The notes under the pieces: generated by a model | What the model was told of the DNA's origin: nothing | The model's input: only the letters and a program-made list of their open reading frames with translations | Database searches by the model: none | DNA from: Amycolatopsis methanolica 239 | GTDB lineage: Bacteria > Actinomycetota > Actinomycetes > Mycobacteriales > Pseudonocardiaceae | Reading direction: 5' to 3' | NCBI RefSeq assembly: GCF_000739085.1 | Contig: NZ_CP009110.1 | Location: forward strand, 4,216,001-4,280,000 | DNA: 64,000 bases | In this document: piece by piece, positions 26,644-45,803 of the stretch | Layout of the letters: each line of letters starts with the position of its first letter | Numbering within the stretch: the first letter of the stretch is position 1 | Position numbers and translations under genes: made by a program

Positions 26644-27738
<1,095 letters not shown>

Positions 27739-27795: not shown

Positions 27796-28962
27796 TCAAG
27801 ATGACAGATCTCGCTCGACGGGAGTGCGGAATTTCGGTATGACGGCGATCCCGGCGAGACGGCCGTGCAACCGTTCGGCGGCGGCCTCCACGGCCGCCGT
27901 TCCGTCGGCCCCGATGTCCTCCAACAGACGGATCGCGATCTCCCCGTCCGGGCGCTGCCCCCACCCGCCGACGACCCGGCCCTCCCACCACACGGTCGGG
28001 CCGATGTTGCCGGTGCGGTCGAACAGCAGCGGCTGGTGCTCCCCCAGGAACCAGCCGCGCTCCTGCCAGCCCATCGGGGTCGGGTCCAGCGCGGGCAACA
28101 GCGCGGCGACCGGCTCCGGCTCCGGGACCGGCTCGTCGTCGCCGGGCAGCGCGATGCCGGGGCCGCCGTCGAGGTCCACCTCCGCCGGGCCGATCGCGGT
28201 GAGCGCCCTCTTCACCTGCCCCGCGGTCCAGCCGGTCCACCACTTCAGGTCGGCGACCGGGGCCGGGCCGAAGGCACGCAGCCAGCGGCGGGCGAGCTCG
28301 ACGCGGGCGGTGTCGGCGTCCACCGGTTCCAACCCGGGCAGCCAGGTCTCGGTGGTCGACCAGGCGTACTGGGTGGACAGCCAGGTGCCGCGGGGGCGGC
28401 CGCGGACGATCCGGCCGGACGCGGCGAGCAGGAACAGGACACGGTTGGTGATGTAGCCACGCGACTCGTACGGCTTGCCCGCGGCCACGACGATCTCGGT
28501 ACGCAGGCGCGGCTCGCCGTCGGCGATCTGCTGAGCGAAGGCGGGCTCGCGGGCCTTCAGCGCGGCGTGCGCGCCGTCCTCGACCTCGGCGAGCCACACG
28601 CTCAGGTCGCCGTCGAGCTCCGCGGTGGCCAGGTGCTGGAGGAGCAGCTTGCGCTGCTTGACGGCGATGTCGTCGGCGCAGGCGGCCTGGACGACCGGCA
28701 CAAGCGCGGCGGGCACGACGAACATCGTGCGGCGCATGCCGAGCATCCGAACCAGCGTGCGGTCGTCGTAGAGGGCGCGCTCGACGTCCTCCGTGCCCGC
28801 GCGTGACCGCGCCAGCACCGAGAGGTGGACGGTCGCCGGATCGGTCGCGTGCAGGGCGACCAGGCTCTCCGCGACCGCGACGGGATCGTCGGCGGGCGCG
28901 TGGAGGCGGTGCCGCGTCACCAGACGGGCGCGGCGCTGGTCGTTCCCCAGTTTCGTGCTCAC
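27796..28962 (-). CDS. Winged-helix DNA-binding protein, AlkZ/YcaQ-like
   Basis: A 388-residue HTH_42 family protein. Typical blocks are the N-terminal ALHATDPATVHLSVLARS, MRRTMFVVP, a middle WLPGLEPVDADTARVELARRWLRAFGPAPVADL region, and LLFDRTGNIGPTVWWEGRVVGGW near residue 320. Characterised relatives (AlkZ/YcaQ) are DNA glycosylases that unhook interstrand crosslinks or remove alkylated bases, often protecting antibiotic producers. The catalytic QxQ of AlkZ is not obvious, so glycosylase activity is uncertain. Single-gene unit at the left end of the accessory stretch. Confidence 0.8.
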   Translation of the reverse strand: MSTKLGNDQRRARLVTRHRLHAPADDPVAVAESLVALHATDPATVHLSVLARSRAGTEDVERALYDDRTLVRMLGMRRTMFVVPAALVPVVQAACADDIAVKQRKLLLQHLATAELDGDLSVWLAEVEDGAHAALKAREPAFAQQIADGEPRLRTEIVVAAGKPYESRGYITNRVLFLLAASGRIVRGRPRGTWLSTQYAWSTTETWLPGLEPVDADTARVELARRWLRAFGPAPVADLKWWTGWTAGQVKRALTAIGPAEVDLDGGPGIALPGDDEPVPEPEPVAALLPALDPTPMGWQERGWFLGEHQPLLFDRTGNIGPTVWWEGRVVGGWGQRPDGEIAIRLLEDIGADGTAAVEAAAERLHGRLAGIAVIPKFRTPVERDLSS

Positions 28963-31025: not shown

Positions 31026-31128
31026 GCGCGGAACTCACGCGCGAGAACGTGGGGCTCACCCACGAGACCGCGGAACTCACGCACGGGACGATGGGACTCA
31101 CGCGCGAGAGCGTGGGACTCGCGTCAGG
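31026..31128. repeat. Five-unit 21-bp tandem repeat at a convergent junction
   Basis: Units start at 31026, 31047, 31068, 31089 and 31110, the first four exactly 21 bases long. The shared core is GG(G/A)(A/G)CTCACGCGCGAGA with small changes. The last unit contains the stop codon of the SMC-like gene at 31124. The unit matches those at 6596 and 39624. Confidence 0.85.
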
Positions 31129-34100
31129 TGGGGGTCCGCTCCCCCGGCCTGGTGAACAGCCGCGTCGCGGAGATGCGTGCTGTGCCGTCCGGCTCGCCCA
31201 GGTCCTCGAGGTGGTTGCGGATCGTCGCGTCGACCGAGAGGTACTTGCGGCCCGCCCGGAGGTCCGCGTCGTTGCGCAGCCTGACGATCAGCGGGAACTC
31301 GGACAGCGCGCCGGCGTCGAACAGGCCCGTCGTGTAGATCAGCTGCACCCCGAGCGCCTCCGCGACGACCCGCTGCAGCTCCAGCAGGTACCCGGCGGAC
31401 GCGCGGCCGATCGGGTTGTCCAGGAACAGCACGCCGGAGTGCCGGTTGCGCACGAGCCCACGGTTGTTCGCCCGTAGCGCGGCCAGCGTGCAGTACAGGA
31501 TGATCGCCGCGGTGAGCTGCTGCCCGCCGGAGAACACGTCACGGATCTCGGACACCCGCTGGCGTTCCGTGCGCAGCACCGAGTCCGGCTTGAGGATGTC
31601 CACCCGGAACCCCTTCGGCACCGCGGCCCGCACGCCACGCAGCACCAGCGACATCCCGTCGCGCTTGACGTCCCGGCCGTCACTGGTCTTCCCGACCGCC
31701 GCCTCGTCGACGACCTGCCCGAGCGCCTCGGACAGCTGCGGCTCCTCCGGGTCGCCGAACCGGATGCGCAGGAACTCCTGCCCGGACCAGCCGCCGAGCC
31801 CCTCCGGCAGCCGCGACAGCCGTTGCGCCGACCGCAGCATCCGCAGCGCGCCCTCGACCATGCCCTGCAGCCGCGCGACGATCCCGGACCGGTGCCGGTC
31901 GATCTGCGCCAGGTCGTCGGTCAGGGTGCGCAGCCGCGGCTTCAACGCGGCCGACCACTCCCGCGCGTGCGCGGGCAGGCTGTCCCGGCGGACCGACACG
32001 ATCTGCTGCCGCACCGGGCTGGTCAGCTTCTCGAACCGCTTGTCGGTGGCGTACTGGGCGAGCGCGTCCGCAGCCGCCCGCACCCGCTTCTCCGCGGCGT
32101 CGACGGCCGCCTCGGCGTCGGTCAGCGTCGTGTTCAGCTTGCGGTAGCGGGCCTGCGCGGCTTCCACGTCGCCGTCGAACACGGTCTCCGGCTCGCCGTC
32201 GGGCGCGAGGTGCGCCATCGACTCGGCGAGCATCTTGAACCCGGCCGCCGACGCGGTGGCCGCCTCCAGGGTCCGCTCGGCTTCCGCGCGCCGCGCCTGC
32301 GCTTCCTCCAGCGCCCGGGCCGCGGCCGACGCCTCCTCGACGGCCTCGTCGATCAGCCCGCGGCCGTGCTCGACGTCGCGCGGCCGGGTCTCCAGCGACG
32401 CGTTCTGCTTCGGCAGCTGGTCCAGTTCGGCCTTGCAGGTCGCGACCAGGCCGATCGCCTCGCTGTGCTCGGCCTCCAGCGCGGACACCATGCGCCCGGC
32501 CCGCGCCAGGGCGGCCGCGCGGGTCGCGGCGTCCGAGCCGTCCGGGGTCTCCAGCAGGCGCGCCGCCTGCTCCCGCACCGCCGGGTCGAGCGCCTCCAGC
32601 GCCGCCCGCGCCGCGGACTCGGCGCCTTCCGCCTGGTCCAGCTCGGCCCGCAGGTCGCTGCCGACCTCGACGCGGGCGTAGGCGTCGCTGGCCGCGGCGA
32701 ACGCCCGGCGCAGCGCGTCGACGGGGTCGGCGGGCACCGGCTCGTCCTCGGACACCGATCCCCCGCCCGGCACCTCGGCGAGCTCGGCGCGGGCGTGGGT
32801 GACCGTGCGGCGGTGGCCGTCGGCGGTGCGCTGCTCTTCGGCGGCTTCCTCGCGCAACCGGGCCGCGCGCGACGCCGCCTGCTCCGCCTCGGCCTCGGCG
32901 CGCGTGACGACCTCCTGCGCGCGCTCCACCGTCTCAGTCCACTGTGGAATCAGCGCGACCCGCTCGGCCAGCTCGGCCAGCTTGCGGGCGCGTTCCTCGC
33001 TGCCGCGCGCCTCGGCACGCAGGGCCGGGATCGCCTCCCGCAGCCGGGTGCGGCGCGCGGCCAGATCGGCCAGGGCTCGCTCCTGGGCGACCACCGCGGC
33101 CTCGGCCTCGGTCTGCTCGGTGGCCGCGGCCTCGGCCTCCTCGGCGAGGGTGGCCAGCGCGCCGGGCGGGTAGTCCTCGCGCCACGTGGTGAGCTTCCAC
33201 TCCAGCGCGGCATCGTCGCCGATCGCTTCGGTGAGCGCTTCGAGCTGCTTCTGGCGGCGGGCGTGCCGGGCGGCGATGGCCTGGCGCTCGGTGTCGGCCG
33301 CCTCCTCGTCATACATCGCGGGGTTGGGCGGGACCAGGAAGTCCACGCCCGGCGCCGCGCCCTCGGCCCGCACCGCCTGCGTGGTGCCGACCGGCAGCAC
33401 CACGCTCGGCAGGAGCTTGGCGTCGGCGAGCACCTGCCGAGCGCGGTCCAGCTGCGCGGCGTCGTTGACGAGCACCCCGCCGAGCAGGTGCGGCAGGTCC
33501 CGCAGCACGCGCTCCCGGCCTGCGGCGTCCATCGTGGACAGATAACGCCAGCCCGACCACGCGGTGATCCCGGCCGCCTCCAGAACGTCCAACGCGGACT
33601 GGACCTCCGGTGGCGCGGGCAACAGCCCACCGGAGCCGAGCGCCGCCAGCGCCCGCTCGTCCACCGACTCCTCCATGCGCAGGGCGGTCTGCTCACGTTC
33701 CGCGGCGGCGCGCGCCTCACGCAGCCGGGTGAGCAGCGCGGGCGTGTCAGTCTCCAGCTGGACGTTGTCGCCGCCGAGCAGCTCCAGCAGCCGCGGGTGC
33801 GCGGCGAGGCGGTCCGAGCGCCGGTGCGCCTTCGCCAGTTCCTCGCCTGCGTGCGCGGCCCGGGACCGGGCAGTCGCGGCCCGTTGTTGCGCGGCGTGCA
33901 GGGCGGCCTGAGCCTGGGCGTGGTCCTCGGCGACCCCTTCGAGTTCACTCTCCCGCGCGGCCAGCTCGGTGGTCGCGTTCTCGCCGCGGGTGCGCGCCTC
34001 CTGCGCGGCGGCGGCGACCTGGGTGCCGTCGCTGAGCAGCCCGTCGCGGACGGCCTGCTGCACCCGCGCGCGCACCTCCTCGATGCGGCGGGTCAGCTGC

Positions 34101-35563
34101 CCCAGTTCGGCGCGGTGCCCGGCGGCGGTGGCGGTGGCCGCGTCCCGCTGGTCCTGCGCGGCCGCGGCGGCGGTGCGGGCGGCCTCCGCGCGGGCCTCGG
34201 CGGCCTGCGCCTGCTCCTCCGCCTCCCGCGCCAGCGCGAGCAGGCCGCGGGCGAGCGCGGTGGCGGCCGCGTTCTTGGCTTCCAGGGCCGGTTTCGCGCT
34301 CTGCTCGCGGTCGCCCACGAGTTTGCGGATGTCCGTCGCCTTCCGCGCGGCGTTCACGTGGGCGAGCACGGTGCCGGTCTCGCGCCACGCGGCCGCGGCC
34401 TCGCGGGCCTTCGCCAGCTCCTCGTCGATCCGCGCCTTCTCCGCGGTCGCGTCGGCCAGCCGCATCTCCCCGACCACGCGGCGCAGCTCGGTGACGACGG
34501 CGTTGCGGCGCCGGCAGTCGCCCTCGGCAAGTTTCTCCGCGTCCCGCGTCTCGTCCACAAAGGACTTCAGTCCGTCGAGGCGCTCGGCCTCCAGCTCGTG
34601 CCGCGCGATCACCGATCCGGCCAGCGCGCGGGCCTCCTCGCGCGCGACCGCGGCGAGCTTGCGGGACGCCGCGGCGAGCGACTCCTCCTCGGTGAGTGGC
34701 GTGAGCAGGTCCAGCGCCCCGGCCACAAAGTCGCGTTCGGACATCAGCTCGCCGCGCTGCCCGAGGTTGTGCGCGTAGGTCTGCACGACCCCGGCCAGGT
34801 CCTTCGGGTCGTCCTCGGGGATCACCGCGCGCAGCAGGAACTCGACTAACGCCTCGTCGGAGGTGAAGGCGAACGCGTCGGCCGCCTCGCCCTCGCCGGC
34901 GTTCATCGCACGCTGGTAGCGGAACAGCTCGGTGTCCAGGCCCAGGGTGTCCAGCCGCTCGGTCCACTCGTGGTGGCGGCGGGTGGTGAACAGCTCCAGC
35001 TCCGGCTCGGCCTTGTGCGCGCGCTCCAGCTGCTCGGCGAACCCGGACATGGTCAGCAGGCGGCCGTCCTCGGTGAACGGCAGCGACTCCAGGCCGAGCG
35101 CGGCCGTGGGCCGGAAGCAGTACCACGAGTCGACCAGGTTCGCCGGGTCGTTGGACACCACGTGCCCGCGCCACTCCGACACCTTGCCGGTGATGACCCG
35201 CTGCCCGGTCTCGGTGTGCTGCCACTCCAGCACGACGTGCGCGACGTCCTTGGCCATCACGAACTTCTCCAGCACACGCGTGCTGGTCGTGCCCACCACC
35301 TGGCGCCGCCCGGGCAGCATGACCGAGAAGATCAGCTTGATCAGCACCGACTTGCCGCCGCCGTTCTCCAGGAACAGCACGCTCGCCGGGGACGGCCGCC
35401 GCGGCAGGCTGCCGTCGGCGGAGTGGATGCCGGCGGTGAACAGCGCGTCCTGCGCCGGCGCCTTGACCAGCGGCCCGACGCCGCTGAAGTCCAGCAGCAC
35501 GTTCTGGTAGCGCGCGCCCGCCGGACCGACGGAGTGCAGGCGCACCCGCGAAAGCTCGTACAC
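31124..35563 (-). CDS. SMC-like ATPase (MukB/JetC-type) of a three-gene complex
   Basis: A 1479-residue protein with an N-terminal ATP site (FLENGGGKSVLIKLI, Walker A at about 66-72), about 560 residues of Ala/Glu/Arg-rich coiled coil, a globular hinge-like region (about 630-745, with ITAWSGWRYLS and LLGGVLVNDAAQLD), a second long coiled coil, and a C-terminal head with the ABC signature FSGGQQLTAA (1344 on) and Walker B GVLFLDNPIG. The residue after the Walker B aspartate (D1382) is asparagine, not the usual glutamate. Size and layout resemble MukB. AGGGGAG precedes the GTG start. It follows the MukE-like gene by 9 bases; together with the MukF-like gene this looks like a condensin-like or Wadjet-related complex acting on DNA topology. 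Confidence 0.85.
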   Translation of the reverse strand: MYELSRVRLHSVGPAGARYQNVLLDFSGVGPLVKAPAQDALFTAGIHSADGSLPRRPSPASVLFLENGGGKSVLIKLIFSVMLPGRRQVVGTTSTRVLEKFVMAKDVAHVVLEWQHTETGQRVITGKVSEWRGHVVSNDPANLVDSWYCFRPTAALGLESLPFTEDGRLLTMSGFAEQLERAHKAEPELELFTTRRHHEWTERLDTLGLDTELFRYQRAMNAGEGEAADAFAFTSDEALVEFLLRAVIPEDDPKDLAGVVQTYAHNLGQRGELMSERDFVAGALDLLTPLTEEESLAAASRKLAAVAREEARALAGSVIARHELEAERLDGLKSFVDETRDAEKLAEGDCRRRNAVVTELRRVVGEMRLADATAEKARIDEELAKAREAAAAWRETGTVLAHVNAARKATDIRKLVGDREQSAKPALEAKNAAATALARGLLALAREAEEQAQAAEARAEAARTAAAAAQDQRDAATATAAGHRAELGQLTRRIEEVRARVQQAVRDGLLSDGTQVAAAAQEARTRGENATTELAARESELEGVAEDHAQAQAALHAAQQRAATARSRAAHAGEELAKAHRRSDRLAAHPRLLELLGGDNVQLETDTPALLTRLREARAAAEREQTALRMEESVDERALAALGSGGLLPAPPEVQSALDVLEAAGITAWSGWRYLSTMDAAGRERVLRDLPHLLGGVLVNDAAQLDRARQVLADAKLLPSVVLPVGTTQAVRAEGAAPGVDFLVPPNPAMYDEEAADTERQAIAARHARRQKQLEALTEAIGDDAALEWKLTTWREDYPPGALATLAEEAEAAATEQTEAEAAVVAQERALADLAARRTRLREAIPALRAEARGSEERARKLAELAERVALIPQWTETVERAQEVVTRAEAEAEQAASRAARLREEAAEEQRTADGHRRTVTHARAELAEVPGGGSVSEDEPVPADPVDALRRAFAAASDAYARVEVGSDLRAELDQAEGAESAARAALEALDPAVREQAARLLETPDGSDAATRAAALARAGRMVSALEAEHSEAIGLVATCKAELDQLPKQNASLETRPRDVEHGRGLIDEAVEEASAAARALEEAQARRAEAERTLEAATASAAGFKMLAESMAHLAPDGEPETVFDGDVEAAQARYRKLNTTLTDAEAAVDAAEKRVRAAADALAQYATDKRFEKLTSPVRQQIVSVRRDSLPAHAREWSAALKPRLRTLTDDLAQIDRHRSGIVARLQGMVEGALRMLRSAQRLSRLPEGLGGWSGQEFLRIRFGDPEEPQLSEALGQVVDEAAVGKTSDGRDVKRDGMSLVLRGVRAAVPKGFRVDILKPDSVLRTERQRVSEIRDVFSGGQQLTAAIILYCTLAALRANNRGLVRNRHSGVLFLDNPIGRASAGYLLELQRVVAEALGVQLIYTTGLFDAGALSEFPLIVRLRNDADLRAGRKYLSVDATIRNHLEDLGEPDGTARISATRLFTRPGERTPT

Positions 35564-35572
35564 CGATCTCCC

Positions 35573-36373
35573 CTAAAGAGTGTCCGAAATAGACGGGCGC
35601 AGCGTGCCCTCGCCGTCGGAGACCGCGACCACGCCGAGGGCCAGCAACTCCTCGAACGCGCTGTCCGCGGCCAGTTCCCGCACCTGCACCTGGTAGCGCG
35701 GCGTGGTGCGGTAGGTGCCGCCCTGCTCGCCGCTGACCTGCACCAGGAACCCCTGGTCGGCCAGGAACCGCAGCGCGCGGGACACCATGCCGCGGGTGGT
35801 GTCCGAGGCCAGGCGGCCGTCCTTGGTCGCCGCCGCTTCGGGACGACGGGCGTAGGCGCGCCAGGCCTGTTCCAGCTCCGGCGAGTCAGACAACGGGTCG
35901 TTGTTGGCCTCGGCCTTCGCGGCCCGCTCGTCGAGGATCCGGCACGCTTCACGCACCACGCCGTCCACCTGGTCGACGCTGACGCGGCCGATGTAGGTGT
36001 CGTTGGCCAGGTCGTCCGGGCGCGGGTAGCCCAGCGCGGCGGTGGCGAGGTGCACGAGGCCGTGCAGCACCTTCTCGGTGTCGCGGCGCTCGCGGATCTT
36101 GCTCTGCCGCGCGTAGCTGTCCATCTTGACCTCGAACACCGACTCGTCGGTGGCGGCCAGCACCGCGCCCGCCTGGTGGCTCACGTCGAGCACCATCAGG
36201 CCCAGCCCCGCGGCGACCGAGTTGGTCAGCTGCTTGAACGCGCTGTCCTCGCTGTAGCGGCGCACGAGATCGGCGTAGACCACGTCGCGCGAGGGCAGGT
36301 GCTTGGGCCGCATGCCGAACGAGATCAGCCGTGCCGCGTTCTCGGCGTCGCCGGTCGTGACCGGACGCGTCAT
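35573..36373 (-). CDS. MukE/JetB-like (KITE-type) subunit
   Basis: A 266-residue, mostly helical protein without recognisable enzyme motifs. The C-terminal part has a winged-helix look (ASDTTRGMVSRALRFLADQG then FLVQVSGEQGGTYRTTPRYQ), the organisation of tandem winged-helix KITE subunits that bind the SMC-kleisin pair. The call rests mainly on its place: between the MukF-like gene and the large SMC-like gene, same strand, with tight spacing. Its ATG lies within ATGA and next to a 15-base repeat (36370-36384) that also occurs at the stop of the upstream gene. Confidence 0.62.
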   Translation of the reverse strand: MTRPVTTGDAENAARLISFGMRPKHLPSRDVVYADLVRRYSEDSAFKQLTNSVAAGLGLMVLDVSHQAGAVLAATDESVFEVKMDSYARQSKIRERRDTEKVLHGLVHLATAALGYPRPDDLANDTYIGRVSVDQVDGVVREACRILDERAAKAEANNDPLSDSPELEQAWRAYARRPEAAATKDGRLASDTTRGMVSRALRFLADQGFLVQVSGEQGGTYRTTPRYQVQVRELAADSAFEELLALGVVAVSDGEGTLRPSISDTL

Positions 36374-36470
36374 GCCGCCCCCTCAACGGACGCGGCAAGC
36401 CGAGGCAGTGCCTTGGCAGGCATGGCGCTGAATGATTCGGACCTGCAAGCAGTCCTCATGCCGCCCCCTC
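36370..36470. repeat. 15-bp direct repeats around a 71-base insert with a bridging mini-ORF
   Basis: TCATGCCGCCCCCTC occurs at 36370-36384 and again at 36456-36470; on the coding strand it is a ribosome site plus ATGA. Between them lies a hairpin around 36399-36417 (GCCGAGGCA pairing with TGCCTTGGC). An ORF of 29 codons (36370-36459, MRTACRSESFSAMPAKALPR and on) starts in the upstream ATGA and ends in the downstream ATGA. Either a small element inserted with target duplication, or a bridging peptide keeps the genes coupled. Confidence 0.6.
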
Positions 36471-37931
36471 TTCGTCTTCCTCGCGTTCGAGCCGCGCTGT
36501 GCTGAGCAGCAGGTCGGCTCCCCCGAACTCGGGGTCCTCCAGCAGCGTGCCGTCGTCGACGGCGAGCAGCGCCCGATCGTCCCCCTGCCGGACGGCGGCG
36601 CCCACCTCGGGACTGTAGGAGTGCAGCGCCCGCAGTGCCACCAGACGCGGCAGCTCCGGGTCGAGCTCGCGGGCCTCGGCCAGCACGCCGGACAGCCGCC
36701 GCGGCACCTCCGGCAGGTCCAGCAGCTCGTCGGCCCGCCGCCACTGCTCGTCACTGTAGTGGTCGAGGCTCTCCGGCGGGACGAGCTCCGGCTCCGGCAC
36801 CTCGCCGACCACCTTGTCCCGCTCGGGCGCGGGCCGCAGCAGCAGCGAGACCAGCGACGGCAGCGCGGGCACAGTCGGCACCACCAGGCCCGCCGAGGCG
36901 TGGAACCACGACTCCAGCGGCGCGACGGCGTCGGCGATGGGCAGCTCCAGCGCGGGCACCAGGATCTGGCCGAACAGGTCGACCGTGGCGCGCTGCGGCG
37001 GGCCGGAGAACTGCTGGCGGTCCTGCTCGGCGCGGAACACCGCGCCCGCGGCCTGCAGGCGGGCCTGCAGCTGGGTGTGGCGGCTGATGCAGTCGCTGAC
37101 GATGTCGACCAGCTCGGCGGCGCGGCGTTTGTGGTCGACGTCCTCGGCCTCGTCCCGGGCGGCGGTGATGTTGCGCAGGATCGCGTTCTCCGCGCGGAAG
37201 CGGGCCTCGATGTGTGTCAGCGCCGAGTCCAGCAGCTCGGGCATCTCGCGGTCCCAGTCCACCGCGCGCACGTCGCGGCGGGTGGCGTCCAGCTTGGCGC
37301 GCAGCGTCTCGCCGTATTGGACGGTGCGGTAGCGGGCCTGCTCGGCGGCGAGCTTGGCGTCGGCGAGGCGGCCGCGGCTGATCAGGTTCTCCAGCTTCAC
37401 CTCGGCCGCGATCTGCGCGGACTCGACGTCGGTGTCCAGCGCGCCGACCAGCACGTTGATCGCCTCGTCGCTGGCGCGCAGGTACACCTCGCCGTCGGGC
37501 GCGGCCAGCTCGACGAGCAGCTTGAAGTCGAACGCGCGGCGCCGGTAGGTGCCGTTCGCGTCGAGGCTGCCGTAGACACGGCGGAAACCGCGGTCGGTGG
37601 TGCCGACGTTGATCAGATTGTCCAGCACCCAGCGGGCGACGCGCAGGTGCTCCTCGGCCGGGCGGCGCGGGGCCTGTGCGGCGATGAACGGCTGCAGGCG
37701 CCGGACGACGTCGTCGTGGTTGGCACCGGTGTCGAAGTCCATCGCGATGGTGACCAGGTCGATCGTGTGCAGGGCGATCTCGGCCATCTGGTAGACAGTC
37801 GCGTCGGCCCAGTCGAGCTTGGACTTCCGCGCGTCCAGGTCGTGCAGGGGCGCGGTGCAGGCGAGCGCCTTGAGCCGCCGGGCCAGGCCCTCGTCCACCA
37901 GCCCCCCGCTGATCAGGTCCGAGTCACGCAC
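36456..37931 (-). CDS. MukF/JetA-like (kleisin-type) subunit
   Basis: A 491-residue soluble helical protein. The middle part (EAINVLVGALDTDVESAQIA, LENLISRGRLADAKLAAEQA, then YGETLRAKLDATRRDVRAVD) resembles the segments in MukF/MksF-type proteins where a strand-helix core is followed by a helical bundle. N-terminal 110 residues (EEHLRVARWVLDNLINVGTT) may form a winged helix. The acidic C-terminus (LEREEDEEGAA) is low in complexity. GTG start, only 11 bases after the MarR-type gene, so the regulator and complex are probably one transcript. I do not recognise a named family with certainty; the role is inferred from the triad. Confidence 0.62.
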   Translation of the reverse strand: MRDSDLISGGLVDEGLARRLKALACTAPLHDLDARKSKLDWADATVYQMAEIALHTIDLVTIAMDFDTGANHDDVVRRLQPFIAAQAPRRPAEEHLRVARWVLDNLINVGTTDRGFRRVYGSLDANGTYRRRAFDFKLLVELAAPDGEVYLRASDEAINVLVGALDTDVESAQIAAEVKLENLISRGRLADAKLAAEQARYRTVQYGETLRAKLDATRRDVRAVDWDREMPELLDSALTHIEARFRAENAILRNITAARDEAEDVDHKRRAAELVDIVSDCISRHTQLQARLQAAGAVFRAEQDRQQFSGPPQRATVDLFGQILVPALELPIADAVAPLESWFHASAGLVVPTVPALPSLVSLLLRPAPERDKVVGEVPEPELVPPESLDHYSDEQWRRADELLDLPEVPRRLSGVLAEARELDPELPRLVALRALHSYSPEVGAAVRQGDDRALLAVDDGTLLEDPEFGGADLLLSTARLEREEDEEGAA

Positions 37932-37942
37932 AGCGCGCCAGA

Positions 37943-38407
37943 CTACCTGGGTGTCCAGTCTCGCTCGACTTCACGCTCGTAGGTGCGCAGCGTGTCGATG
38001 ACCAGGCGCCGCTGCTCGGGGGTGAGCGGGTCCAGGGCGGTGCGCCAGGCGCGGGCGCCGGCGGCGAGCCAGCCCTCGACCTCGGCGCGGTAGGTACCGG
38101 CGATGCTGACGATCGTGCGGCGGCGGTCGCTCTCGTCCTCGGTTCGGTCGAGGATCCCGCGGCGGCTGAGGTCGCCGACCATCAGGCTGACGGTGGTGGG
38201 CGCGACCTCCAGCCGCGCGGCCAGCTCGTTGACCGTCATCGGCCCGTCGAACAGCAGGTAGGACAGCAGCGACAGGTGCCGCGGGGCGAGGTTGAAGTCG
38301 CGCAGCCGCTCCGGCACCGGCAGCTTCTTGGCGCGGCCGACCAGGCGCGGCACGAGCAGCAGCATGGTGCGGACGGCCTCGTCGGCGGTCGGTGCGTCGC
38401 TCGCCAT
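37943..38407 (-). CDS. MarR-family regulator, leading the SMC-like operon
   Basis: A 154-residue regulator with the MarR winged helix: LAPRHLSLLSYLLFDGPMTV, then NELAARLEVAPTTVSLMVGD and the wing DESDRRRTIVSIA. The ATG at 38407 is used because it precedes the family N-terminus and faces the divergent PPOX gene at 38441, with only 33 bases between. Its stop lies 11 bases before the MukF-like gene on the same strand. It may therefore control both the SMC-like complex and the flavin or F420-dependent enzyme opposite. Confidence 0.87.
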   Translation of the reverse strand: MASDAPTADEAVRTMLLLVPRLVGRAKKLPVPERLRDFNLAPRHLSLLSYLLFDGPMTVNELAARLEVAPTTVSLMVGDLSRRGILDRTEDESDRRRTIVSIAGTYRAEVEGWLAAGARAWRTALDPLTPEQRRLVIDTLRTYEREVERDWTPR

Positions 38408-38440: not shown

Positions 38441-38878
38441 ATGCACGCACTGAGCAGGGACGAGTGGCTGGAGTTCGCTTCCGCGGGCACGCGCACCGGG
38501 AAGCTGGGCGTCACGCGCGCCGACGGCAGCCCGCACGTGACGCCCATCTGGTTCGTCGTCAACCCGGGCGACGCTGCCGACGAGCTGATCTTCAACACCG
38601 GCGCGGAGTCGGTGAAGGGGCGGGCGCTGCGGCGGGACCCGCGGTTGTCGCTGTGCGTGGACGACCAGGAGCCGCCGTTCGCGTTCGTCCAGTTCACCGC
38701 CGAGGCGACGCTGCACGAGGACCTGGACGTGATGCTGCTTTGGTCGACCCGCATCGGCGCGCGCTACATGGGCGAGGACCGGGCGGACGAGTTCGGCAAG
38801 CGCAACGCCGTGCCCGGCGAGCTGCTGGTCCGGGCGCGCATCACCAAGGTGATCGCGTACGGCGGTCTCGCCGACTGA
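38441..38878 (+). CDS. PPOX-class (pyridoxamine oxidase-fold) F420/FMN-dependent enzyme
   Basis: A 145-residue split-barrel protein: TRTGKLGVTRADGSPHVTPI followed by WFVV near residue 20, then KGRALRRDPRLSLCVDDQEP and PFAFVQFTAEATL. These proteins bind F420 or FMN and reduce or oxidise diverse substrates; Actinobacteria have many copies. The specific substrate cannot be told. Divergent from the MarR gene over a 33-base gap, which must hold both promoters. Confidence 0.85.
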   Translation: MHALSRDEWLEFASAGTRTGKLGVTRADGSPHVTPIWFVVNPGDAADELIFNTGAESVKGRALRRDPRLSLCVDDQEPPFAFVQFTAEATLHEDLDVMLLWSTRIGARYMGEDRADEFGKRNAVPGELLVRARITKVIAYGGLAD

Positions 38879-44813: not shown

Positions 44814-45803
44814 TTAAACGCTTTCCTCTTCGAGCATCTCCGGGGTTACTGCGCTTTCGGTGTCGGGGATGTTCAGTTCCTTCGCCCGCTTGTCGGCCAT
44901 CGCGAGCAGGCGCCTGATCCGGCCGGCCACCGCGTCCTTCGTCATCGGGGGGTCGGCCAGCTGGCCCAGCTCCTCCAGCGACGCCTGCCGGTTGTCCAGC
45001 CTCAACCGTCCGGCGGCGAGCAGGTGTTCGGGTGCGCTGTCGGCCAGGATGTCCAGCGCTCGCTCCACCCGGGCGGCCGCCGCGACGGCTGCTCGCGCGC
45101 TGCGGCGCAGGTTCGCGTCGTCGAAGTTGGCCAGGCGGTTGGCCGTCGCCCGGACCTCGCGGCGCATCCGGCGCTCTTCCCACTGCAGAACGCTCGCGTG
45201 GGCGCCCAGCCTGGTCAGCAGGGCGCCGATCGCGTCGCCGTCGCGGACCACCACCCGGTCGGCTCCCCGCACCTCCCTCGACTTGGCCTGGATGCCCATC
45301 CGCCGGGCGGCCCCCACCAACGCCAGCGCCGCCTCCGGGCCGGGGCAGGTGACCTCCAGCGAAGACGACCGGCCGGGCTCGGTCAGCGAACCGTGCGCCA
45401 GGAACGCGCCTCGCCACGCGGCCTCGGCGTCGGCGATCCCGCCGGACACCACCGCGGCGGGCAGGCCCCGCACCGGGCGGCCCCGCTGGTCGATCAGGCC
45501 CGTCTGCCGCGCCAGGCTCTCCCCGTCCTGAACCACCCGGACGATGTACCTCGTCGTCTTCCGCAGCCCGCCCGCGGACAGCACGTGCACGTCCGAATGG
45601 TGGCCGTACAGCTCGTGGATCTCCTTGCGCAGGCGCCGAGCGACCGAACCCGTGTCGAGCTCGGCCTCCACCACCACCCGTCCCCCCACGATGTGCAAGC
45701 CACCAGCGAAGCGCAGCATCGACGCGACTTCGGACCGGCGCGGCCCGATCTTCGTGATCTGCAGCCTGCTGAGCTCGTCCTTCACGGCGGCGGTCATCGC
45801 CAT
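44814..45803 (-). CDS. whiA: WhiA, sporulation/cell-division transcription factor
   Basis: A 329-residue protein with a LAGLIDADG-type N-terminal domain ([20 protein letters not shown]) and a C-terminal helix-turn-helix ([20 protein letters not shown] then [20 protein letters not shown]). In Actinobacteria WhiA works with WhiB to switch on division genes; other Gram-positives keep it too. It follows yvcK by 9 bases in the conserved rapZ-yvcK-whiA operon. Confidence 0.97.

Follow-up and report, generated by a model that had tools for sequence, protein, structure and literature searches.

A type III Wadjet JetABC operon without its nuclease, located between whiA and gap in Amycolatopsis, as a candidate second chromosome-acting SMC complex

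The chromosome of Amycolatopsis methanolica 239 carries an operon that appears to be a type III Wadjet JetABC minus its nuclease, and on balance we favor the view that it has become fixed there and, like MukBEF, acts on the chromosome as a second complex next to Smc, a function that we infer from gene content, conservation and location. We consider it an even chance that type III Wadjets lost their nuclease and became fixed chromosome-acting SMC complexes on two or more occasions, in the Amycolatopsis/Prauserella lineage and in Streptomyces, with JetD as a swappable warhead and A. rifamycinica as the owner of a re-armed motor. If such repeated disarming is true, many antibiotic-producing actinomycetes carry an unrecognised second condensin beside Smc.

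The jetABC operon of A. methanolica 239 and its neighbours

The window, i.e. the whole stretch of 64,000 nucleotides that was analysed, contains on its minus strand the genes jetA3 (36456..37931, a kleisin of 491 aa with a GTG start), jetB3 (35573..36373, a KITE, i.e. winged-helix, protein of 266 aa) and jetC3 (31124..35563, an SMC ATPase of 1479 aa). The three open reading frames reported in the first-pass annotation are thus present, and together they form a jetABC unit (31124-37931, minus strand, gene order A-B-C) that PADLOC models identify as the core of a type III Wadjet. JetC, an SMC ATPase of the DUF3584 type, matches the JetC3 profile (PDLC00588) with 1944 bits over residues 1-1475 and JetA the JetA3 profile (PDLC00567) with 694 bits, both far above chance. 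By sequence, JetB gives a weak PADLOC match (13.4 bits, E 0.0072) and its assignment to JetB3 is made via position and predicted fold. In Foldseek searches, the predicted fold of JetB shows likeness to MukE and JetB, with MukE-containing entries top-ranked, and the model of JetA points to a MukF-like kleisin, with MukF-containing entries top-ranked at a low TM-score; the kleisin and KITE partners claimed at first pass are both predicted in this way. Sequence and profile searches of the PDB returned no match to MukB, MukE or MukF, and the likeness to these proteins lies at the fold level only. A Rad50/SbcC-type identity of JetC was considered and rejected on profile scores (10.1 bits with the NCBIfam Rad50 model, the cut-off of which is 1087, vs 1944 bits with JetC3), and the ATPase does not group with Rad50, in line with its earlier description.

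The SMC ATPase features Walker A, signature and Walker B are all present in JetC and vary little or not at all across an alignment of 35 JetC sequences. They comprise ENGGGKS (35348..35368, minus strand), which we take to be the Walker A-like motif and in which N67, G68, G70 and K71 are invariant in sequences with and without JetD alike, SGGQ (31520..31531, minus strand), presumably the ABC signature-like motif, with S1345, G1346 and G1347 invariant and Q1348 nearly so, and LFLDNP (31412..31429, minus strand), in our assignment the Walker B-like motif, with L1379, L1381, D1382, N1383 and P1384 invariant. The residue following the Walker B aspartate is asparagine in all 35 aligned type III JetC proteins, whether accompanied by JetD or not. 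The operon is located at 4.25 Mb of the 7.24-Mb one-contig genome, in which dnaA is found at base 34. A canonical Smc is encoded in the same genome (983.6 bits at genome positions 1615521-1619081); a replacement of Smc, as is typical of MukBEF, has therefore not taken place.

A MarR-family regulator of 154 aa (37943..38407, minus strand; Pfam MarR_2, 43.7 bits) precedes jetA. The MarR domain makes up the C-terminal part of a longer open reading frame, and with the ATG at 38407 chosen as start the gap between the end of marR at 37943 and the GTG of jetA at 37931 amounts to 11 bases, reproducing the spacing noted at first pass. The regulator is a lineage-specific neighbour, present in 5/80 related loci plus four further fetched relatives (L116, L152-L154). 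The description of the operon as MarR-led finds no support as a defining trait, and MarR is incidental to the operon. A gene for a PNPOx-type oxidoreductase (PPOX; 38441..38878, plus strand; Pfam PNPOx_N, 56.9 bits), transcribed divergently from marR, is a frequent neighbour with a match in 53 of the 64 sequences searched, window included. Between jetC and gap resides a gene for an AlkZ-like DNA glycosylase (27796-28962, minus strand; Pfam, 236.9 bits), a DNA-repair neighbour of jetABC that was matched in 48/64 sequences searched.

Distribution of JetD, the whiA-gap site and selection

While JetA3, JetB3 and JetC3 are all present, the fourth member of a type III Wadjet, the JetD TOPRIM nuclease, is missing from the operon. 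tblastn with two JetD proteins yielded nothing above background in the window, and the 7.24-Mb genome matched neither PF09983 at E<=10 nor, at E<=0.01, a type III JetD profile built from eight members. The latter profile recovers JetD in 44 of the family's 297 genomes, mostly in the position right after a JetC and in five cases only with E above 1e-5, indicating that the search method works. The earlier statement that JetD is lacking thus stands. Nor is JetD constantly linked in homologous loci, given that it lies behind jetC in 8/76 judged related loci, adjoins the core JetC in 1/99 Amycolatopsis-group genomes and is present in 11/150 Streptomyces genomes. From the high-scoring loci of the family a selection was fetched; four of the 80 related loci (L036, L066, L075 and L080), in which the contig ends in or before jetC, were dropped from the JetD count. 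Of the eight loci with JetD behind jetC, six (L061-L064, L070 and L071) lie outside the Amycolatopsis-type clade; the other two are L069 of Tamaricihabitans and L047 of A. rifamycinica.

In the genus of the window strain, a high-scoring JetC is encoded in 19/19 genomes and JetD adjoins that copy in 0/19; JetD occurs in 4/19, each time beside a second, divergent JetC. The second Amycolatopsis genus-level group (g16) has JetC in 80/80 genomes, in one piece in 77/80 and in two pieces in G337, G340 and, at contig ends, G314. JetD is found in 18 of these 80 genomes, namely beside the core JetC in one (G327, which corresponds by its coordinates to A. rifamycinica L047) and beside a second JetC in 15; for the remaining two (G316, G333) no JetC is listed in the vicinity. 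For both groups pooled, this amounts to a core JetC in 99/99 genomes with JetD adjoining it in 1/99, and to JetD beside a second JetC in 19/99, the second copies being patchy. In 77/99 genomes the core JetC is present and no JetD is detectable with the type III profile. An internal stop was flagged for 12 of the 99 core JetC entries; in the three that were checked it coincides with the normal C-terminal end, and nine were left unchecked.

The operon is located between uvrC-yvcK-whiA and gap-pgk-tpi. Pfam domains and synteny identify the two borders of this conserved site, whiA (44814..45803, minus strand; WhiA_N, LAGLIDADG_WhiA, HTH_WhiA) and the GAPDH gene gap (26644..27699, minus strand; Gp_dh_N, Gp_dh_C). 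In the clade defined by 62 fetched loci (L001-L060, L065, L067), on which the site counts rest, whiA and/or gap were present in the fetched flank of 60, both in 36 and neither in L015 and L036; the figure of 99/99 refers to the presence of JetC in genomes. Both genes also flank the JetD-containing operon of Tamaricihabitans. Among 197 JetC-less relatives, 20 were listed and 19 of these examined, leaving out G011 (74% complete). In 18 of the 19, whiA and gap lie 114 bp to 8.5 kb apart without JetABC, and G006 could not be judged. In the relative G024 (locus L141; WhiA 90%), whiA and gap enclose the PPOX gene and no JetABC, perhaps as a consequence of secondary loss. In two Haloechinothrix loci, the spacers between jetABC and its borders measure about 135-165 bp on the whiA side and 209 bp on the gap side, which leaves no room for a hidden partner gene. 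The first-pass annotation had placed the operon in a variable stretch between conserved blocks, and by synteny the stretch is indeed variable, but the operon is itself its constant part. Far from being a rare insert, it occupies a fixed chromosomal locus in the clade.

JetD-less operons are not confined to this site. Neither whiA nor gap was present in the fetched stretches of L068, L093-L095, L110 and L111 (outside the clade) or of L099 and L106 (genus g40), L099 being placed inside the clade by trees; loss of JetD is thus not restricted to the fixed position. In Cellulomonas timonensis (L068:16903-18192), jetC is followed not by jetD but by a gene for an AAA_14/DUF4143 protein matching the PADLOC candidate PDC-S01. 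Likewise, whiA and gap are absent from the fetched 9-21 kb of all 16 distinct JetD-containing operons other than L047 and L069.

Nei-Gojobori dN/dS values for JetA, JetB and JetC (ten pairs, three subunits) are 0.00-0.21, showing that JetABC is under purifying selection. Controls gave 0.03-0.08 for WhiA and 0.08-0.11 for Gap. In the pair of the window and L003, the values for JetA/B/C are 0.19/0.16/0.18 vs 0.08 each for WhiA and Gap, about twice those of the housekeeping flanks. Three armed Pseudonocardiaceae pairs yielded 0.08-0.30 for JetABC and 0.36-0.52 for JetD; a fourth pair, L095-L091, has one JetD-less member, lies outside this armed range with up to 0.31 and comes from loci with uncertain JetB starts. 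Columns invariant in operons with JetD and mostly changed in those without it number 2, 2 and 16 for JetA, JetB and JetC, providing no clear evidence for erosion of JetD contacts.

Armed relatives, A. rifamycinica and Streptomyces

The JetA proteins of the JetD-containing operons L061-L064, L070, L071 and L083 share 61-69% identity with that of the window (best tblastn segment). In a Pseudonocardiaceae metagenome-assembled genome (L061:12283-17769, the same system as L085), JetC and JetD make up a single open reading frame of 1828 aa, possibly a natural fusion.

A. rifamycinica L047 makes up a special case. Its sequence follows that of 11 close relatives to within about 60 bp of the stop codon of jetC, and the match resumes immediately after jetD; the intervening piece, the jetD frame, is present in 0/11 of them. 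A further stretch of 0.6-1.2 kb missing from relatives is found 0.9 kb downstream of jetD (L047:18644-19825). The GC3 of jetD is 0.795 vs 0.93-0.96 for jetA, jetB and jetC, with 0.966 for the next gene; in the 16 other JetD-containing operons measured, jetD GC3 is at most 0.07 below that of jetA. The sister locus L041 encodes a JetA that is 99% identical and no JetD. These sequence features argue that jetD was probably gained recently in A. rifamycinica and put back behind jetC. Alternatively, an old jetD may have survived there, as the tree groups the JetD proteins of L047, L069, L081 and L118 together on long branches.

Outside the fixed site, the JetD-containing operon of G110 (L081:12089-13784) adjoins que-like genes, which we take to be queC/queE/queD-like, and possibly belongs to a 7-deazaguanine DNA modification island. 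Genome G112 harbors an orphan JetD (L118:7995-13280) that is 79% identical to the JetD of L081, with a CBASS-type cyclase and TRIP13 encoded nearby and no match to JetA, JetB or JetC in that stretch. The neighbourhoods of L081 and L118 indicate that this type of JetD also travels in defence regions.

Streptomyces provides a second case, located with the aid of a class survey (61/394 genomes with JetC at E<=1e-100) that served this purpose only. In the genus group taken as Streptomyces, JetC is encoded in 147/150 genomes at E<=1e-50 and JetD in 11/150. Eight of the 11 JetD adjoin a listed second JetC, while those of G763, G797 and G831 lie far from the core JetC with no adjoining JetC among the matches listed. 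No JetD was found at the JetABC loci L072-L074 and L076-L079. dN/dS for Streptomyces JetABC is 0.03-0.15. The Streptomyces operons resemble that of the window in being JetD-less and near-universal in the genus; they differ in forming a separate clade, in having other neighbours and in a JetC of 1530-1601 aa (L072, L074, L077), i.e. about 50-120 aa longer. In the JetA+B+C tree the two JetD-less groups stand apart, with JetD-containing lineages closer to Amycolatopsis. Union of the two groups is rejected by the AU test for JetA+B+C (LG+G4, p 9.8e-5) and not for JetA alone (p 0.11). Two independent fixations, in Amycolatopsis and in Streptomyces, are the better reading, albeit not a certain one.

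Proposed function and relation to known systems

By analogy with MukBEF and JetABC, JetC would form dimers, with the JetA kleisin as their bridge and JetB as a bound partner, and these would use ATP to load on and extrude DNA. Without JetD, completed extrusion of a circle would have no cutting outcome. The selected activity might then concern the cell's own long DNA, i.e. its folding, segregation or repair, by a second SMC complex parallel to MksBEF and MukBEF. Absence of JetD, universal presence, a fixed site and purifying selection together point at a motor used on the cell's own DNA, suggestive of a former weapon turned chromosome organiser. Our confidence in this is lowered slightly by a constraint below that on the housekeeping flanks and by the occurrence of JetD-less operons off the site. 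The explanation is further weakened by the JetD-containing loci L069, L047 and L081 (G110), which lie inside or beside the clade and leave the number of losses and gains unsettled. The lack of clear erosion of JetD contacts in JetA/B/C and the JetABC-less site of G024 also count against it. The orphan condensin-like complex of the first-pass annotation survives as such with regard to predicted folds, JetD linkage and Rad50 similarity; its MarR regulator turned out not to be defining and the operon to be fixed rather than rare.

The conservation of JetABC would also fit defence without a nuclease or with a nuclease acting in trans. Smc5/6 silences viral DNA, and JetABC could similarly compact small circular DNA and thereby silence or mis-segregate plasmids or phages. 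A section of PMC10586767 assigns shape and size sensing in Wadjet to JetABC, and JetD stands beside a second JetC in 19/99 genomes, such that a non-cutting role of the core copy need not be redundant. We regard such immunity as unlikely, yet as a serious contender, for the locus is fixed and universally present, unlike the patchy second copies, and a PADLOC scan of three neighbours detected no defence family. Plasmid killing through a nuclease encoded elsewhere, be it a different TOPRIM enzyme or a JetD supplied by a second Wadjet, seems more doubtful still. JetD does appear exchangeable, as judged from the foreign-looking jetD directly behind jetC in A. rifamycinica and from the orphan JetD beside CBASS-type genes in G112, but no nuclease is conspicuous among the conserved neighbours and most genomes of the two Amycolatopsis groups lack JetD by the type III profile, which is blind to non-homologous nucleases.

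Two further explanations carry very little weight. A decaying Wadjet remnant that drifts after loss of its effector would account for the absence of JetD and for the JetC in two pieces in G337, G340 and G314; it is largely refuted by one-piece JetC in 77/80 and 19/19 genomes, by the low dN/dS values and by the normal ends of the three checked among the stop-flagged entries. Just as improbable is a ligand-induced stress SMC complex with MarR as the key to its function: the close spacing of marR and jetA in the window speaks for it, the rarity of MarR at related loci against it, and no strong palindrome was seen in the marR-PPOX intergenic gap. We retain a chromosome-acting complex as the preferred reading. 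Should this activity on chromosomes be real, a second condensin would exist in two major genera of antibiotic producers. Armed (Tamaricihabitans), disarmed (61/62 clade loci, one of which is truncated by a contig end) and apparently re-armed (A. rifamycinica) states occur at a single locus in closely similar sequences, which renders the change testable by a jetD swap.

Loss of JetD as such has been published before, and so has the existence of a class of Wadjet relatives that lack it. In passages of PMC10586767, JetABC is presented as sensor and motor and JetD as effector of Wadjet, and MksBEF is proposed to derive from JetABCD via loss of JetD. Part of PMC7617805 lists several other members of the Wadjet group without MksG/JetD, calling for caution with the first-pass view of a JetD-less complex as unusual, even though such a complex is what we find. 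A portion of PMC10482375, the main text of which contains neither 'JetD' nor 'JetABC', describes an enrichment of Wadjet in Actinobacteria and, within Streptomyces, toward the ends of the chromosome. The accessible sections of two papers on Streptomyces chromosomes (PMC8410768, PMC13121528) name Smc as condensin and mention no such complex. We found no published account of a type III JetABC that is fixed throughout Amycolatopsis and Streptomyces, of the constant whiA-gap site or of armed and re-armed states there.

Compared with type III Wadjet (JetABCD), the window operon encodes homologous JetA, JetB and JetC in the same A-B-C order but differs in the lack of JetD from operon and genome and in its fixation at the whiA-gap site. 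With MukBEF of E. coli it has in common a kleisin-KITE-SMC trio, encoded in one operon without a nuclease; the differences are that the JetC profile finds no MukB sequence match in the PDB and that the canonical Smc is retained. With MksBEF of P. aeruginosa and the actinobacterial MksBEFG it shares the status of a second SMC complex beside Smc. The MksBEFG of C. glutamicum is described together with its nuclease in an excerpt of PMC10123090, and the systems of C. glutamicum and P. aeruginosa PA14 are assigned to type I in part of PMC10586767, whereas that of the window matches type III models. The window system derives from type III Wadjet but, lacking JetD, is no longer a Wadjet itself, nor is it recognisable as MukBEF by sequence; it probably works like MukBEF and MksBEF.
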